From: Dictyobacter kobayashii
GTDB taxonomy: Bacteria > Chloroflexota > Ktedonobacteria > Ktedonobacterales > Ktedonobacteraceae
DNA length: 64,000 nucleotides
Reading direction: 5' to 3'
Assembly: GCF_003967555.1 (NCBI RefSeq)
Contig: NZ_BIFS01000001.1
Location: 5,208,001 to 5,272,000, forward strand
Under the pieces are notes generated by a model that had not been told where the DNA came from, ran no database searches, and was given only the letters and a program-made list of their open reading frames with translations. Every line of letters begins with the position of its first letter. Positions within the stretch are counted from its first letter, which is position 1. The translations under genes and the position numbers were made by a program. Below, one piece after another: positions 24,548-63,046 of the stretch.

Positions 24548-24652
24548 GCCTGAACTCCCTTTTTAGCATATCTGCCAGGATCTATTCTGTAAGAGGCCTA
24601 TAAACTTATTCAACTATATCATAATATGCTCTTCAGCATTCTTTTTTGTTGT

Positions 24653-24992
24653 CAGGGCTTTTTTTATGTTCTTCTTTGGCGCCTGCGGCGCCGGGTTGGG
24701 AGTGAGGAGTGTGGTGGTGGGCGGCTGCGGCCGCCCACCACCACACTCCTGACCTGAAAGAATGGGCCTCGTATGGCTTGCTTGTGATCTCCCTGTTTGT
24801 CGGAGGGAAGAGGCTGCGGCCGCCCACCACCACACTCCTGACCTGAAAGAATGGGCCTCGTATGGCTTGCTTGTGATCTCCCTGTTTGTCGGAGGGAAGA
24901 GGCTGCGGCCGCCCACCACCACACTCCTGACCTGAAAGAATGGGCATCGTAGTGCTTGCTTGTGATTTTTGGACGAACATGAAAAAGCCCTG
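24653..24992. repeat. Palindromic element, family A copy 3, with 89-bp tandem units
   Basis: The 340-bp element is bounded by 11-bp inverted repeats CAGGGCTTTTT (24653-24663) and AAAAAGCCCTG (24982-24992). A perfect 21-bp-arm palindrome spans 24705-24750. Its right arm plus spacer is then repeated with an 89-bp period (units at 24727, 24816 and 24905). The outer segments match the copy at 3382 in reverse orientation (GGACGAACAT...AAAAAGCCCTG on one side, GGCGCCTGCGGCGCCGGGTT on the other). Open frames over it are artefacts. Confidence 0.88.
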
Positions 24993-25022
24993 TTTTCTTG
25001 CTGTTATGCAAAAATGAATACT

Positions 25023-25045: not shown

Positions 25046-25116
25046 AAGCATTCAAGCGGTAGTTGTGATGTTGTGAATTTAGAATGGACATCTGGCCCTA
25101 ATGGTGACTGCCGTGA

Positions 25117-25320
25117 TTAATGATGTGGCTCGTACCTATGACCATGACGGTCATAACAATAACGGCGGTGCCGTTTTTTATCATAATAGCATTTGTCTCT
25201 ATCGCGCTCGTCGTCTCCATATCCAGTGTCATGACCACCGGATACTTGTGCCAGGTCCTGGTCGTTTAGTTCAATGCACTCGTTTGACTGATCAGCAGTG
25301 TCATAATGAAACAGTTTCAT
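25117..25320 (-). CDS. Double-glycine-leader peptide with Asp/Tyr/Cys/His-rich core
   Basis: This 67-residue peptide starts at an ATG with AAAGGGGA upstream. Residues 1-29 form a leader ending IELNDQDLAQVSGG, the classic bacteriocin-type Gly-Gly cleavage site. The 38-residue core has two Cys, clustered Asp and Tyr, and a basic His-rich tail ending EPHH. It is a divergent relative of the peptides at 38.6-40.9 kb, sharing the MKLF start, the ELNxQxL leader block and the acidic-to-His core polarity. That independent conservation shows it is a real gene. Expected fate is cleavage and export by a C39-peptidase ABC transporter; the core suggests metal binding. No modifying enzyme is adjacent. Confidence 0.75.
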   Translation of the reverse strand: MKLFHYDTADQSNECIELNDQDLAQVSGGHDTGYGDDERDRDKCYYDKKRHRRYCYDRHGHRYEPHH

Positions 25321-25803
25321 TGTAGTTCCCCTTTCTGGTCCAGCGAGAACGGTTCAAGTATGGCAAATGTCCATCCATACATGGGCACGTTTCTGGACGG
25401 CGAATGTTACTCATGAACACTGTTGTCAGCGGGCTTTAGCTATGATGGTGGCGCTGATGGTGATGGCGCTGGGGCTGCTGGCGAGGCCTGTGGTGACGAT
25501 CATTGACAGCGTTGAAATTACCATCAAATTCAGGTGCATGTGTGCGCTGACGTGCTGGAATGGCCCGCCGACCTGATGGCCGCTGAATAAAACGTGTCTG
25601 ATGGCCAGTTTGGCTAGTAGAATTAGCTTTGCCCCGCATTGGCCAAACTCAGCATCTGATATAATAGAGTGCATGGTGCGAATTGCCGGGGCGCGCTGCA
25701 AGGTTATTGTGCATACTTGAGCGCATTAGGGAGCCGGTTGTGGCTTCGGGTAGTAGAGGATAATGACGGTTTTGTTTGAATTAATAAGGATGGGCCTTTC
25801 TGG
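25321..25803. other. Intergenic region between peptide gene and sensor kinase
   Basis: Holds the leftward promoter region of the peptide gene and the rightward promoter of the kinase. A leftward 67-codon frame at 25436-25639 ends in a His-rich tail (QRHHHQRHHHS) but has no GG leader or ribosome-binding site, so it is not called as a gene. Confidence 0.45.
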
Positions 25804-28691: not shown

Positions 28692-29471
28692 CTAGAGGGT
28701 TGGGGCCAGGAGCGTGAGCAACGCGCACAGCATGCACGCACCTCCGGTCAGGAAGCGGAGCCGGTTACCCACAGAGAATTCGCGCTCCAGCCACATGAGC
28801 AGTGCCAGGCCAGCCATCATCAACAGATTACGCATACCAATGCCCACCATGAGCAGCATTAAGGCCCAGTTACTGCCCACACACCACAGGCCATAGCGGT
28901 ATCCTTGCCGCCAGCTTGTGGTTGTGCTCTCCTGGTTGTTGTCACGGGTATGCATTAAACAGAGCCGTTTGACAGGGCTCCATTGGAAGATCCCTGCCAC
29001 TGAAAAGAGTAGTGTCGCAATCCATTGTGGATGCAGGTAGAGCCACCACCACTGATTCACCAGACCATGGAGCAGGGTATCACCCACAAAAGCCGCGCCA
29101 GCAAAGAGTGTCCAGCTCGCGGCATAGCCTGCCATAAAAAGGGCCTGAGTGGGCCAGTAGGGTCGCCTGTCGTTATGTGGAAGCAGGAGCAACTGGCTGA
29201 ATAAGGCCGGGATCATCATCGCGAGTAGCATAACCTGCCAGCCCAGCAAAAAGACCAGCAAGGCCAGCAGCCAGGGCCAATGGCTGGCCCTGATCAGGTA
29301 ATCATGGTCCAGCCAGGCATTGTGTCCCGTCAAGAACGCAATGCCCAGTAATCCCCAACTGGCAGCCAATAGCAGCCAGGGCAATATAAATGCGTGCCAT
29401 GACACCGCAATGCCTGGATTTTGTCCCGCCGTATTTGCCTGATGGGCGCCTCTAATTGGAGTCAGGCTCAT
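28692..29471 (-). CDS. DUF2182 membrane protein (predicted metal-binding)
   Basis: The 259-residue protein has about six membrane helices. The diagnostic DUF2182 motif is GWQVMLLAMMIPALF, followed by a second half with GLWCVGSNWALMLLMVGIG. The family is annotated as predicted metal-binding integral membrane proteins; its exact role is unknown. The ATG at 29471 overlaps the end of the upstream HMA-domain gene by 20 bp, so the two are translationally coupled. The pairing suggests handling of copper or another soft metal at the membrane. Longer upstream frames are not favoured, since they would run far into the HMA gene. Confidence 0.82.
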   Translation of the reverse strand: MSLTPIRGAHQANTAGQNPGIAVSWHAFILPWLLLAASWGLLGIAFLTGHNAWLDHDYLIRASHWPWLLALLVFLLGWQVMLLAMMIPALFSQLLLLPHNDRRPYWPTQALFMAGYAASWTLFAGAAFVGDTLLHGLVNQWWWLYLHPQWIATLLFSVAGIFQWSPVKRLCLMHTRDNNQESTTTSWRQGYRYGLWCVGSNWALMLLMVGIGMRNLLMMAGLALLMWLEREFSVGNRLRFLTGGACMLCALLTLLAPTL

Positions 29472-29718
29472 GCTTCTCGGTATCCCAGCGCACCTGGTAA
29501 TTGTGGGTTGTACCAACTGATTGCCCGATAATCGCGGTCTCTATCAGCTCTGGAGGAATAGGCTTGCTGGTGGTCAACACCACCGAGGCTTCATCGTGTG
29601 GGGTCCGCGTCAACTCAACCTGTTCGGTTCCCGGCAGGGACTCCAATGCGCTGCGAATGCGCGCATCGCACTTCTCACAGGTTACATCCTCAACCAAAAA
29701 ATGTTGCTGGTAAGACAT
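29452..29718 (-). CDS. HMA (heavy-metal-associated) domain protein, CopZ-like
   Basis: The 88-residue protein matches a small metallochaperone: VEDVTCEKCDARIRSALESL holds the CxxC metal site (CEKC), followed by the beta-alpha-beta pattern with EQVELTRTPHDEASVVL. The usual MxCxxC Met is replaced by Val-Thr. A GAGGAAG ribosome-binding site precedes the ATG. It is the first gene of a two-gene operon with the DUF2182 membrane protein and may hand copper(I) or a similar ion to it. Confidence 0.85.
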   Translation of the reverse strand: MSYQQHFLVEDVTCEKCDARIRSALESLPGTEQVELTRTPHDEASVVLTTSKPIPPELIETAIIGQSVGTTHNYQVRWDTEKHEPDSN

Positions 29719-38588: not shown

Positions 38589-38808
38589 TTAGCAGCTGTG
38601 ATGGCGATGGTGGCGATGATGGTGGTGATGATGGTGATGGCGATCGCAGTCATAATCGCAATCGTCGTCATCATGATCGCAGTCGTCATAGTCATAGTCG
38701 CCGCCGCCGCTGCCACCGGAAACGGCGCTTAACTCTTGCTCGTTGAGCTCAAACTTCGCGGCTCTGGGCCTCGTCACGGCTGCTGTTGGAAGAGCGGAAG
38801 AATTTCAT
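38589..38808 (-). CDS. GG-leader Asp/Cys/His-rich peptide A, one-base frameshift in leader
   Basis: The ATG at 38808 has AAAGGG upstream and encodes MKFFRSSNSSRDEAQSREV. One extra T (TTT against TT in the copy at 40303) then ends the frame. The correct frame resumes at ELNEQELSAVSGG and continues to 38589. The mature part after GG is Gly-rich, then Asp/Tyr with three Cys, then about twelve His with interspersed Arg. It is almost identical to peptide C, so the intact form is clear. It precedes the methyltransferase gene on the same strand. The frameshift may be a sequence error. Confidence 0.72.
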
Positions 38809-38943
38809 GATCGGATACCCTTTCTGTACGCTGAGATGCGTACACTCTGTATTTTTCTCTGTTCGTTTCTTGCTACTCTTGCTGTTCTGGCTTGCTGGTT
38901 CTGTTTGGATCGTATGCTCTATGGATAGTATTGAATGGCCGGA

Positions 38944-39147
38944 TTATGAGCGATGGTGGCGATGATATGATGGTGTGGTGGTGGTGGCGATCGCAGTCAT
39001 AATCGCAATCGTCGTCATCATGATGCAGTCGTCATAGTCATAGTCGCCGCAGCCGCGGAAATAGCGGACAGTCTTGTCGTTCAGTTCGACATCGTTAGTG
39101 TTCTGGACGGTCTCGCGGTTGCTGTTGTTGGAGCGGAAAAGTTTCAT
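38944..39147 (-). pseudogene. Degenerate GG-leader peptide B
   Basis: The leader start MKLFRSNNSNRETVQNTNDV is identical to peptide D. Three single-base deletions then destroy the Gly-Gly site (ELNDKTVRYFRGCG in place of ELNEQELSAISGG). A fourth deletion after DYDYDDC throws the core out of frame, giving IMMTTIAIM. Four losses within 80 bp, all of G on the coding strand, suggest a true pseudogene rather than isolated base-calling errors. Confidence 0.7.
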
Positions 39148-40302: not shown

Positions 40303-40521
40303 TTAGAAGTTGTGATGGCGATGGTGGCGATGATGGTGGTGGTGGTGGTGGTGGCGATCGCAGTCATAATCGCAATCGTCGTCATCATGATCGCAGTCGT
40401 CATAGTCATAGTCGCCGCCGCCGCTGCCACCGGAAACGGCGCTTAACTCTTGCTCGTTGAGCTCAACTTCGCGGGTCTGGACCTCGTCACGGCTGCTGTT
40501 GGAAGAGCGGAAGAATTTCAT
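40303..40521 (-). CDS. GG-leader Asp/Cys/His-rich peptide C (intact)
   Basis: The 72-residue peptide starts at 40521 with AAAGGG upstream. Leader residues 1-32 end VELNEQELSAVSGG, a canonical double-glycine processing site. The 40-residue core is SGGG, then an acidic stretch with 12 Asp, 3 Tyr and 3 Cys, then a tail with 12 His broken by Arg and ending NF. Cys, His and Asp are all metal ligands, so a zinc, copper or nickel-binding secreted peptide is a fair inference. No similar described RiPP or bacteriocin core comes to mind. Peptide D lies upstream on the same strand, 134 bp away. Confidence 0.82.
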   Translation of the reverse strand: MKFFRSSNSSRDEVQTREVELNEQELSAVSGGSGGGDYDYDDCDHDDDDCDYDCDRHHHHHHHHRHHRHHNF

Positions 40522-40655: not shown

Positions 40656-40868
40656 TTAGAAGCTGTGATGGTGATGATGGCGATGATGATGGTGGTGATG
40701 GTGACGATCGCAGTCATAATCGCAATCGTCGTCATCATGATCGCAGTCGTCATAGTCATAGTCGCCGCAGCCGCCGGAAATAGCGGACAGCTCTTGCTCG
40801 TTCAGTTCGACATCGTTAGTGTTCTGGACGGTCTCGCGGTTGCTGTTGTTGGAGCGGAAAAGTTTCAT
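40656..40868 (-). CDS. GG-leader Asp/Cys/His-rich peptide D (intact)
   Basis: The 70-residue peptide starts at 40868 with AAAGGGA upstream. The leader (1-33) differs from that of peptide C at many positions but keeps MKxFRSxNS and VELNEQELSAISGG. The 37-residue core begins CGDYDYDDC, has four Cys in all, the same acidic Asp block and a 12-His tail ending SF. Conservation of leader and core polarity between C and D, despite divergence at other positions, supports selection on the peptide. Tandem CRP-like sites lie about 180 bp upstream. Confidence 0.82.
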   Translation of the reverse strand: MKLFRSNNSNRETVQNTNDVELNEQELSAISGGCGDYDYDDCDHDDDDCDYDCDRHHHHHHHRHHHHHSF

Positions 40869-59855: not shown

Positions 59856-60443
59856 ATGGACGGGTCCAAGCGGACAATTTTTCGCCATGAGGCGCTGGAA
59901 TTTTATCTCCAGAACAAAGAGCAGACTATTCTGCCGCGTGTGGTGGCTCCTCCGGTGCTGCTGATGTTGTGGCTGCTGGCCGCTCTGGCCGTGCTGGCAA
60001 TGGGTGGTGCCTGTCTGTACCGCGTTCCCGTCTATGCGGCGGGGGTGGGTGTGATTACGCAGCACCCCAATCAGACAGGTAGCTCATCCTATACACAGGC
60101 TCTAGTCTTTCTGCCGCTTGACGTGGTACGTGCCAGTCAGCTGCGCTCACTACACGTCGGGAGCCAGGTTCATTGGCGGTTGGCTACGGCGGATCAGGGG
60201 ACGCTGAAGGCGGTGGTGGGGCGTGTCGAGCTGTCAGCGCTGGCGCCTGAGGAGATACAGCAGCGCTATGCGCTCGATGACCATGCGGCTCAGCTCATTG
60301 TGGCTCCTTCTTTTGTCATACAGCTACAACTGGAGGGCGATTGGCGGCGCTACGCGGGGAGTCGCTTGCAGGTACAGGTGCCGATTGATACGCAGAGTGT
60401 CATCTCGTTGTTGTCAGGTTCTAACATGGTCAGGGGTGAATAG
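59856..60443 (+). CDS. Short HlyD-like protein of the lanthipeptide export system
   Basis: The 195-residue protein has a cytoplasmic N-terminus (IFRHEALEFYLQNKEQTILP), one membrane helix (about 35-57: LMLWLLAALAVLAMGGACLY) and an outside beta-rich domain (VGSQVHWRLATADQGTLKAV). The N-terminus and anchor resemble membrane-fusion proteins of peptide ABC exporters (NHLM secretion proteins). The long coiled coil of true HlyD proteins is missing, as fits a monoderm organism. GAAAGG precedes the start. It ends four bases before the transporter gene and is probably its accessory subunit. Confidence 0.65.
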   Translation: MDGSKRTIFRHEALEFYLQNKEQTILPRVVAPPVLLMLWLLAALAVLAMGGACLYRVPVYAAGVGVITQHPNQTGSSSYTQALVFLPLDVVRASQLRSLHVGSQVHWRLATADQGTLKAVVGRVELSALAPEEIQQRYALDDHAAQLIVAPSFVIQLQLEGDWRRYAGSRLQVQVPIDTQSVISLLSGSNMVRGE

Positions 60444-60446
60444 CGC

Positions 60447-62654
60447 ATGGTCACAGCAAAATCCTCCAATGGGCGTCAGCAGGGCAAGGGCGTGCTGCGC
60501 AGGCGCGTCGAGGCGCAGAGGCAGATGGGGATAATGGAGTGCGGGGCGTCCTGCCTGGCGATGATCCTGACGTATCATGGCCGCAAGACCAGTGTGGCCG
60601 AGGTGCGCGAACGCTGTGGGGTTGGACGCGATGGGTTGACGGCCCTGGCCCTGGTGAACGTGGCCCGCTCCTATGGTTTGCGGGTGCGGGCCATCACAGT
60701 TGACGAGCGCGAGTTTCGCTTCGTTCCTTTCCCAGCCATCATCCATTGGAATTTTAACCATTTTATGGTGGTTGAGCGTTGGACGCCAAAATATGTCGCC
60801 CTGGTCGATCCCGGCTCTGGCCGCAGGCAGGTGACGATGGATGAGTTCCGGCAGAGCTTTACCGGAGTTGTATTGACCTTTGAACCCGGCGTCAACTTTC
60901 AACGTCGCCGCGGGTCCGATCGAATCACGCTGCGTTCCTATGCCACCGGTTACATCCGCCAGGCTCCTCTGGCCTTTCTACAGATTCTCGGGGCATCGTT
61001 GTTGCTGCAACTGTTTGGATTGGCGATGCCTCTGGTTACAGCTATTGTGATGGATCACGTTATTCCCCAGGGGATGCAGGATCTGTTGTTCGTCATTGGT
61101 GGTGGCCTGGTCGTGTTGCTCTTGGCGCAGTTTATTGTGACGCTCTTACGTGGCTCTCTCTTGCTGTATTTGCAGGCACGCATCGACATGCGCATGATGC
61201 TCAACTTTTTCGAGCATCTGTTGTTGTTGCCGCAGCGCTTTTTTCAGCAGCGCTCGAGCGGTGACATTCTGGCGCGCATGAATAGCAATCTCATTATTCG
61301 CGATACGATTAGCAACCAGCTCATTTCAACGGTACTCGACGGCAGCTTTGTCCTGATCTATTTTGTCATCCTGCTCACGCAGTCCTGGTCCTTCAGCTTG
61401 CTCGTCTTGCTGATCAGCGCGCTGCAGATAGGATTACTGCTAGGGACGACGCGTCTGATGCACGCGTTTTCGAGCCAGGAACTGGCGGCGCAGGGCAAGG
61501 CGCAGGGATATATGGCGGAGGCCCTGGTAGGCATGACGACACTAAAATCTATGGGAGCGGAACACCGGGCGCTGGAACGCTGGTCCAACCTGTTTTTCGC
61601 GCAGATGAATGTCTCGCTACGGCGGAACTATCTCTCTACGCTCCTGGCCGCCGTACAGGCGCTCTTGCGCACCTGCGCGCCACTGATCCTCTTGTGGTTT
61701 GGCACCTGGCAGGTGCTCAATGGCACGATGTCGGTGGGCGTGATGCTGGCCCTGAATGCCCTGGGAGCATCGCTCCTGACTCCGCTGGCGACCCTGATGG
61801 CGAGTGGGCAGAGTCTGCAACTTATTCATTCGCACCTGGAGAGGATCGCCGATGTGCTGGAGGCCGAGCCTGAGCAGCAGCCGGATGAGGTGATGCTGCC
61901 GCCCGCGCTCAGCGGTCATGTGCGCCTGGAGCACGTCTCGTTCCAATATGATGTGCATGCTCCACAGGTCCTGCATGACATCTGCCTGGATATTCAGGCT
62001 GGCCAGCGCGTCGCGCTTGTCGGCCGAACCGGCTCGGGCAAGAGCACGCTGGGCAATCTATTGCTGGGGCTCTATCTGCCGACCGAAGGGACCATCTGCT
62101 ATGATGAGCATCCCTTATCGACGCTGAACTACCGGGCGGTACGTTCTCAGTTCGGGGTGGTCGTCCAGCATGTGAGTATCTTTAGTGGCACTCTTCGCGA
62201 CAACCTTACCTTGAGCAATCCGGATGTGGATATGGAGCAGGTCGTCAGGGCGGCCAGCCTGGCCGCCATCCATGATGAGATTACGCGCATGCCGATGGGC
62301 TACGAGACGTATGTGTCCGAAAATGGCAACGCGCTCTCGGGTGGGCAATGCCAGCGCCTGGCCCTGGCGCGGGCACTGGTTCACCAGCCCGTTCTGCTGC
62401 TGCTGGACGAGGCGACCAGCTCACTGGATGTCATAACCGAGCAAGTAATTGAGCACAATCTGCGCGCCCTGGCCTGCACCCAGATCATTATCGCCCATCG
62501 CCTGAGCACCATTCGCAACGCGGATGTCATCCTGGTGTTGGATGAGGGTCGCATCGTTGAGCGCGGTTCACACGAAGCATTGTTGCAGCAGCAGGGCTAC
62601 TACGCGCAGCTGATTCAGCGGCAACTGGCCAATGGTGAACTATGCGGCGAATAA
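60447..62654 (+). CDS. C39-peptidase ABC transporter (bacteriocin/lanthipeptide exporter)
   Basis: The 735-residue protein fuses three domains. An N-terminal C39 peptidase has Gln26, catalytic Cys32 in QMGIMECGASCLAMI, His105 in NHFMVVE and Asp121 in LVDPGSG. A six-helix ABC membrane domain covers about 160-450. The ATPase has Walker A GRTGSGKSTL, signature LSGGQCQRLALARALV, Walker B LLLLDEATSSLD and switch IIAHRLS. Such proteins cut a leader after Gly-Gly and export the core. Its nearest substrate is the lanthipeptide precursor at 62870. The other GG-leader peptides in this window have nearly the same cleavage-site sequence and could share it. Confidence 0.93.
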   Translation: MVTAKSSNGRQQGKGVLRRRVEAQRQMGIMECGASCLAMILTYHGRKTSVAEVRERCGVGRDGLTALALVNVARSYGLRVRAITVDEREFRFVPFPAIIHWNFNHFMVVERWTPKYVALVDPGSGRRQVTMDEFRQSFTGVVLTFEPGVNFQRRRGSDRITLRSYATGYIRQAPLAFLQILGASLLLQLFGLAMPLVTAIVMDHVIPQGMQDLLFVIGGGLVVLLLAQFIVTLLRGSLLLYLQARIDMRMMLNFFEHLLLLPQRFFQQRSSGDILARMNSNLIIRDTISNQLISTVLDGSFVLIYFVILLTQSWSFSLLVLLISALQIGLLLGTTRLMHAFSSQELAAQGKAQGYMAEALVGMTTLKSMGAEHRALERWSNLFFAQMNVSLRRNYLSTLLAAVQALLRTCAPLILLWFGTWQVLNGTMSVGVMLALNALGASLLTPLATLMASGQSLQLIHSHLERIADVLEAEPEQQPDEVMLPPALSGHVRLEHVSFQYDVHAPQVLHDICLDIQAGQRVALVGRTGSGKSTLGNLLLGLYLPTEGTICYDEHPLSTLNYRAVRSQFGVVVQHVSIFSGTLRDNLTLSNPDVDMEQVVRAASLAAIHDEITRMPMGYETYVSENGNALSGGQCQRLALARALVHQPVLLLLDEATSSLDVITEQVIEHNLRALACTQIIIAHRLSTIRNADVILVLDEGRIVERGSHEALLQQQGYYAQLIQRQLANGELCGE

Positions 62655-62869
62655 ATTTCTCTTTCACATGGACGTTCCGGACTGTATAGCGTACGATCCA
62701 GTCATTGCATTGAGGAGGCTACAGGCGATAAACTCGCCATCCCTCATAAGTTAGGAAGCACTGACGAAAGGACATACGGATATGCGGCCGTCGTCATAAA
62801 TGATTTAACGTTCTGATGAGTTATTGGTCGGGGCACATGCTGTGGACCCGACAGGAAAGGATCACTGCC
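62655..62869. promoter_or_regulatory. Upstream region of the lanthipeptide precursor gene
   Basis: The gap between the exporter and precursor genes has no coding frame. A separate promoter for the highly expressed precursor is likely here. The ribosome-binding sequence GGAAAGG lies about 10 bases before the ATG at 62870. Confidence 0.4.
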
Positions 62870-63046
62870 ATGAACATCGAAGAAATTGTCAAAGCCTGGA
62901 AATCCGAAGAAGAGACCGCCGACGTCAACATGCCCGCCAACCCGGTTGGAGAGGAGCTCTCCGACGAGGAGCTGCAGGAGGTCAGCGGCGGCTTCCCCTG
63001 TCCTATCATCTCAAAATGCTTGACAAATTGGACCGGCAATTTATAA
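62870..63046 (+). CDS. Class II lanthipeptide precursor (LanA)
   Basis: The 58-residue peptide has an acidic leader (1-41) beginning MNIEEIVKAWKSEEE and ending GEELSDEELQEVSGG, a canonical LanM/C39 leader with a Gly-Gly site. The predicted 17-residue core is FPCPIISKCLTNWTGNL. It has two Cys and Ser7, Thr11 and Thr14 as dehydration sites, so at most two (methyl)lanthionine rings can form. A core this short resembles no lantibiotic I can name. It sits between the exporter and LanM genes, as expected for a cognate substrate. Confidence 0.88.
   Translation: MNIEEIVKAWKSEEETADVNMPANPVGEELSDEELQEVSGGFPCPIISKCLTNWTGNL

Follow-up and report, generated by a model that had tools for sequence, protein, structure and literature searches.

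The open reading frame at positions 25117 to 25320 of the minus strand, in a stretch of 64,000 nucleotides that was analysed as a whole (the window), is probably a real small gene for an exported-type peptide, as judged from its sequence. The evidence that it is a gene comes from five lines that are largely independent of one another. In our overall reading, to which we give an even chance, the frame would encode an orphan, lineage-specific precursor with a double-glycine (GG) leader, exported in trans by a C39 exporter, and with a ligand-rich core that acts by its composition. The source genome of the window (two contigs, 8.85 Mb), which by its gene content probably belongs to the Ktedonobacteria, is referred to as G000; other genomes, contigs and loci are given G, C and L numbers where they have to be told apart. 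The features of the focal gene are:

25117-25320, minus strand: focal precursor ORF, 67 aa plus stop, ATG start.
25234-25320, minus strand: double-glycine leader MKLFHYDTADQSNECIELNDQDLAQVSGG, 29 aa, with predicted C39 recognition residues L-12, D-8, L-7 and V-4 and a predicted cut after Gly29.
25120-25233, minus strand: core HDTGYGDDERDRDKCYYDKKRHRRYCYDRHGHRYEPHH, 38 aa.
25328-25336, minus strand: ribosome-binding site AGAAAGGGG with AAAGG, 9 nt upstream of the focal ATG.

Translation of 25320-25117 (minus strand) yielded MKLFHYDTADQSNECIELNDQDLAQVSGG (leader) followed by HDTGYGDDERDRDKCYYDKKRHRRYCYDRHGHRYEPHH (core) and a stop codon. The coordinates, the MKLF start, the leader end ELNDQDLAQVSGG and the core rich in Tyr, Asp, Cys and His, all reported in a preliminary description of this DNA, were confirmed in the translation. 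The core holds 6 His, 7 Asp, 2 Glu, 6 Tyr, 2 Cys, 7 Arg and 3 Lys, with a single Thr and no Ser. An AAAGG ribosome site was found at 13 of the 14 family members, as compared with 1.5% of the ATG codons of the window. A consensus scan of the intergenic stretch, which is a weak test, turned up no sigma-70-like promoter. An antisense frame at 25101-25325 (plus strand, 74 aa) was considered and rejected; it mirrors the same codons and has neither a leader nor other support.

A leave-one-out profile of the 13 other family members matched the focal peptide with 34.4 bits (E 1.2e-9 for 1000 sequences), a score reached by none of 200 whole-peptide shuffles and none of 200 leader-only shuffles. Shuffling of the core alone changed the score little, 72 of 200 such sequences scoring as high as the focal peptide. 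Since shuffled cores score about equally, the homology of the focal peptide to the family is, on this measure, confined to the leader, and the core is related by composition only. The leader pattern EL.[DE].[DE]L..[VI].GG had no match in 60 Markov-shuffled 64-kb windows; written as DNA and searched in 29 real genomes of the taxonomic family, it gave about 100 forward matches against none for the reversed pattern. When 994 six-frame ORFs of 55-95 aa were ranked by richness in H, C, D, E and Y over the last 38 residues, the top five all carried a GG leader and the focal frame was fourth (the ORFs were drawn from the window and 13 loci of its own genome that had partly been chosen by leader, and the composition ranking is independent of that choice). 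The H/C/D/E/Y fraction of the focal core was 0.61 against a mean of 0.17 in long ORFs, and none of 3357 long-ORF windows matched the focal value. A whole-genome BLAST comparison of the focal peptide with the array peptides (listed below) gave E values of 1.7e-4 and 0.004, weak owing to length and composition. An excess at third codon positions in the leaders was set aside as evidence, the set having been picked by amino-acid pattern. The earlier assertion that low-complexity chance is insufficient to explain the frame was borne out by the profile, pattern, composition-rank and ribosome-site tests.

An array of related peptides lies at 38.6-40.9 kb of the window and comprises two intact and two frameshifted copies:

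40656-40868, minus strand: intact array paralogue 1 (MKLFRSNNSN... ISGG), an Asp block followed by a His block.
40303-40521, minus strand: intact array paralogue 2 (MKFFRSSNSS... VSGG).
38944-39147, minus strand: broken copy of paralogue 1, with several deletions of 1-4 bases in leader end and core.
38589-38807, minus strand: broken copy of paralogue 2, frameshifted by one extra T in the leader.

Apart from these changes, the leader and core DNA of the second array unit (38589-39147) nearly matches that of the intact unit, and either decay or read errors may account for the differences. In the array cores, acidic residues and His form separate blocks (0-1 of 5000 shuffles equally separated), and the separation is strong also in the peptide L070a. 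In the focal core the separation was not significant (p about 0.08-0.09), and for this reason the case for function was not rested on charge blocks. A local tandem origin of the focal gene was rejected, as the closest leader sits in another species: the peptide at G001:C57:1118-1345 (MKLFRNAQNEK...ELSDQELASVSGG CGNEYRFDREHEHRHYGHQDEDCYHSEHHHYERRRRHHHDCF) shares 11 of the last 16 leader residues with the focal peptide, the array leaders 8-9. The lanthipeptide leaders of the same genome share 7-8 of 16, near the array value.

Identity between the focal peptide and the other members ranges from 25 to 45%. Besides the array, the genome of the window carries members at L023 (10065-10322) and L027 (9673-9906), as well as Gly-rich forms at L026 and L029. 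Further members in the same genus are located at G001:C91, on G002:C1 and C3, on G003:C1 at 2.759 and 3.713 Mb and on G004:C1 at 4.906 Mb. Members were present in all five genomes of the genus that were searched and in another five genera of the taxonomic family, and some of them end the leader in Gly-Ala instead of Gly-Gly. Among 301 sampled genomes of the phylum, the 14-member profile matched 9 genomes of six genera, all inside the taxonomic family, a count that is partly circular in that the profile includes members from some of the matched genomes.

Several related loci are recorded here for their own sake. The GG-leader peptide L122 (G003:C1:3.713 Mb) has a core made of (N/R)DHRRY repeats. 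At L067 7344-10737 (G008), about nine GG-leader peptides stand in tandem with a C39 exporter 3 kb off; their leaders are near-identical and their cores are of a Lys/His/Ser/Gly type and mostly related. At L026 8958-12770 and L072 2897-8145, in two species, GG-leader peptides with Gly/Tyr/Trp/His repeats adjoin a gene that we take to be HypF-like.

Selection was assessed on a paralogue, as the focal gene has no orthologue. The preliminary description had proposed that dN/dS be computed separately for leader and core; in a syntenic trio (L027 in G000, L136 in G002 and L137 in G001), where one family member lies between shared neighbours (60-90% identity), this was achieved for the leader, and the cores were not alignable. 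The neighbours include proteins that we read as desaturase-like, SUKH-like and transpeptidase-like, of which Pfam picked up only SUKH, with a score under the cut-off. For the leader, dN was 0.18 and dS 1.47 (G000 against G002), and because of this difference the trio leader is, by this estimate, under purifying selection. The corresponding cores, HGGDCYRNDDCDRHDDCDDRHYEND... and HGHDSYNCYREYHRGGDHRGYGHRG..., gave no confident alignment and use the same residues; the trio cores are rearranged yet still rich in H, Y, D, C, R or G. The three-species trio and the spread over several genera both support the earlier view of the focal peptide as a divergent, stand-alone member of an old and diversified GG-leader family.

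At the focal locus, the serine hydrolase (75%) and the PAS kinase (71%) that flank the gene are still adjacent in G004, separated by 413 bases as against 1236 in the window. This syntenic stretch of G004 lacks both the focal frame and the interspersed repeat that lies at 24.69-24.99 kb of the window. The preliminary description had named absence of the frame from the syntenic site in close relatives as refuting its reading, and formally such an absence was found in G004, the only relative that keeps the neighbourhood. Our reading is that a copy was gained or lost, and that the focal copy is lineage-specific rather than a non-gene, because the evidence for the gene is independent of synteny and the identity of the neighbours is only about 75%. 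No focal orthologue was found outside the genome of the window: the protein had no match among 84,980 named genomes or in viral contigs and plasmids, and the array peptides had no relative in the named-genome search, in a set from which records near the genome of the window may be absent. The interspersed repeat (about 24652-24993) has an internal inverted part and occurs in dozens of copies (76-90% identity) in G000, with a few in G004 and G002.

The preliminary description had also pointed to an HMA/DUF2182 metal-handling pair nearby. The distance stands (the pair lies at 28692-29718, 3.4 kb from the focal gene), but the metal-gene context was not supported. Sensor-kinase and response-regulator frames on the opposite strand lie in between; the HMA/DUF2182 pair is missing at the G004 locus; G002 and G004 have no DUF2182, and where it does occur, in G001 and G003, none of the family members found is near it. 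As HMA/DUF2182 is not conserved beside the family, the neighbourhood was not taken as evidence for a metal function, and a metal operon with this pair was rejected as functional evidence. A CopC-CopD gene was seen near the family only at the Gly-rich locus L026 (G000).

The consensus for leaders of PCAT substrates is L(-12)XXXE(-8)L(-7)XXXXGG (PMC6959990). The focal leader fits it with L-12, Asp for Glu at -8, L-7, V-4, G-2 and G-1. The genome has nine C39 domains, one of which is in the window:

60447-62654, plus strand: C39 peptidase ABC exporter, beside a lanthipeptide precursor.

This exporter, 35 kb away, is the nearest to the focal gene, which has none beside it; an adjacent exporter does not strictly define such peptides, since there are orphan substrates. 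The lanthipeptide locus (window 59856-63046, and L031 2816-7171) comprises the C39 exporter with an accessory protein and a precursor of the mersacidin type, which scores above the TIGR03898 cut-off; three further precursors lie just past the window end. Family members adjoin C39-ABC genes in four genomes (L023 in G000, L070 in G004, L073 in G009 and L134 in G003), with two peptides each beside the exporters of L070 and L073. The C39 domains of L070, L073 and L134 share 67-76% identity with the L023 domain. Beside the exporter, L023, L070 and L073 have a small accessory protein in common that has no Pfam match; in L134 none was matched. At L023 6852-9300 the exporter occupies two frames (C39 and membrane parts; ATPase) as opposed to single frames in G004, G009 and G003, and either a frameshift or an error in the reads may have split the gene.

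On this basis three steps are proposed. In the first, which is well supported, the C39 domain of an ABC exporter would read the leader and cut after Gly29. In the second, the peptide would be exported in trans, as no exporter stands beside the focal gene; the likeliest exporter would be that at G000:C1, about 4.849-4.852 Mb, which has a family member as its neighbour. Another C39 exporter of the genome may serve instead, and the choice of exporter is a guess; the exporter at 60.4 kb of the window is possible and not the likeliest. In the third, the released 38-residue core would remain unmodified, probably disordered and extracellular, and would act through bulk composition rather than a fixed fold, as a multidentate, pH-sensitive polyampholyte of His, Asp, Tyr, Cys and Arg that may bind metal ions or charged surfaces. 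Metal binding by the focal core is plausible from the ligands it contains.

A wider form of this proposal is rather unlikely in our estimate: that the family is one of secreted polyampholytes, with the tag conserved as sequence and the cargo only as composition, forming extracellular metal-binding or metal-crosslinked material. If true, C39 machinery would export disordered, composition-selected matter and not toxins or signals.

The strongest rival, doubtful as it is, holds that the exported core would contribute to a biofilm or cell-envelope coat, metal binding being secondary or absent. Its model is the EbfG1-4 set of Synechococcus elongatus, GG-leader biofilm matrix proteins with no known domains that are exported by the C39 transporter PteB (PMC4997328, PMC9981879). 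The Gly/Tyr/Trp/His repeat cores of L026, L072, L075 and L079 look structural rather than toxin-like, and the replacement of Gly-Gly by Gly-Ala in some members recurs in one EbfG. The focal core itself, however, lacks repeats and any evident hydrophobic stretch of the amyloid kind.

An unmodified class II type bacteriocin, possibly metal-assisted, is unlikely. The focal leader scored 15.3 bits against TIGR01847 (bacteriocin_sig), just under the cut-off of 15.7, the layout of exporter and accessory gene in its relatives is that of bacteriocin loci, and fast-changing cores are compatible with an arms race. Yet the match is to the leader only, with no match of the core to any bacteriocin family; no immunity-like gene was recognised in the frames neighbouring the focal ORF; and the focal core is very hydrophilic. 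Among the other curated families, PF10439 gave no match and TIGR03949 (class IIb) 11.7 of 21.5 bits.

Very unlikely is a modified RiPP, whose leader would also guide an enzyme in trans, for example at the lanthipeptide locus from about 60 kb. The genome does carry a mersacidin-type precursor beside a C39 exporter, and the leader ends are similar; but the focal core, with no Ser and a single Thr, offers almost no lanthionine substrate, TIGR03898 did not match the focal peptide, and a modification enzyme was not noticed in the frames listed around exporter-linked members of the family, part of which were run through Pfam.

An unexpressed, dying duplicate, open only through its youth, is equally improbable. 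It would agree with the absence from the syntenic relative G004, with two of the four array copies being already broken and with the large repeat adjacent to the gene, but an intact frame, leader motif and ribosome site are unlikely in a decaying copy that has diverged so widely. A chance ORF, which the want of an orthologue outside the genome would fit, is contradicted by the leader-pattern, shuffle, ribosome-site, composition and profile statistics and can practically be dismissed.

GG-leader peptides are read almost reflexively as bacteriocins. In this family, spread across about six genera, the leader is under purifying selection and the cargo is conserved only in its amino-acid composition. 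Should the cores turn out to bind metal or form matrix, the use of C39 exporters would extend beyond killing and signalling; EbfG is the one worked-out precedent found for such an extended use. The family also represents a natural set of variants for probing the extracellular role of disordered, ligand-rich peptides. In the literature, no paper was found on His-rich GG-leader peptides, which may carry another name, and a paper on gene clusters of Ktedonobacteria did not mention histidine.

Compared with known systems, the precursor proposed here shares with the double-glycine C39/PCAT leader peptides (TIGR01847, TIGR03949, PF10439) the leader logic, the GG cleavage site and exporter-linked relatives, and differs from them in its hydrophilic polyampholyte core, which has no similarity to theirs, in that no immunity gene was noticed and in scoring below the curated cut-offs. 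The leaders of mersacidin/lichenicidin-type class II lanthipeptides (TIGR03898, 62816-63046) have the same EL..EEL..VSGG type of end and a C39 exporter, but include a longer N-terminal part that the focal leader lacks and are followed by a Cys/Thr core. Histatins, which are eukaryotic, are short, disordered, metal-binding peptides rich in His, Asp, Tyr and Arg; the likeness is in composition only, and their secretion differs. With EbfG1-4 and PteB the focal family has in common small GG (or GA) precursors with no known domains, export by a C39 ABC transporter (predicted for the focal family) and multi-copy sets; EbfG1-3 form amyloid, whereas the focal core is charged, and the likeness drawn here is one of features.
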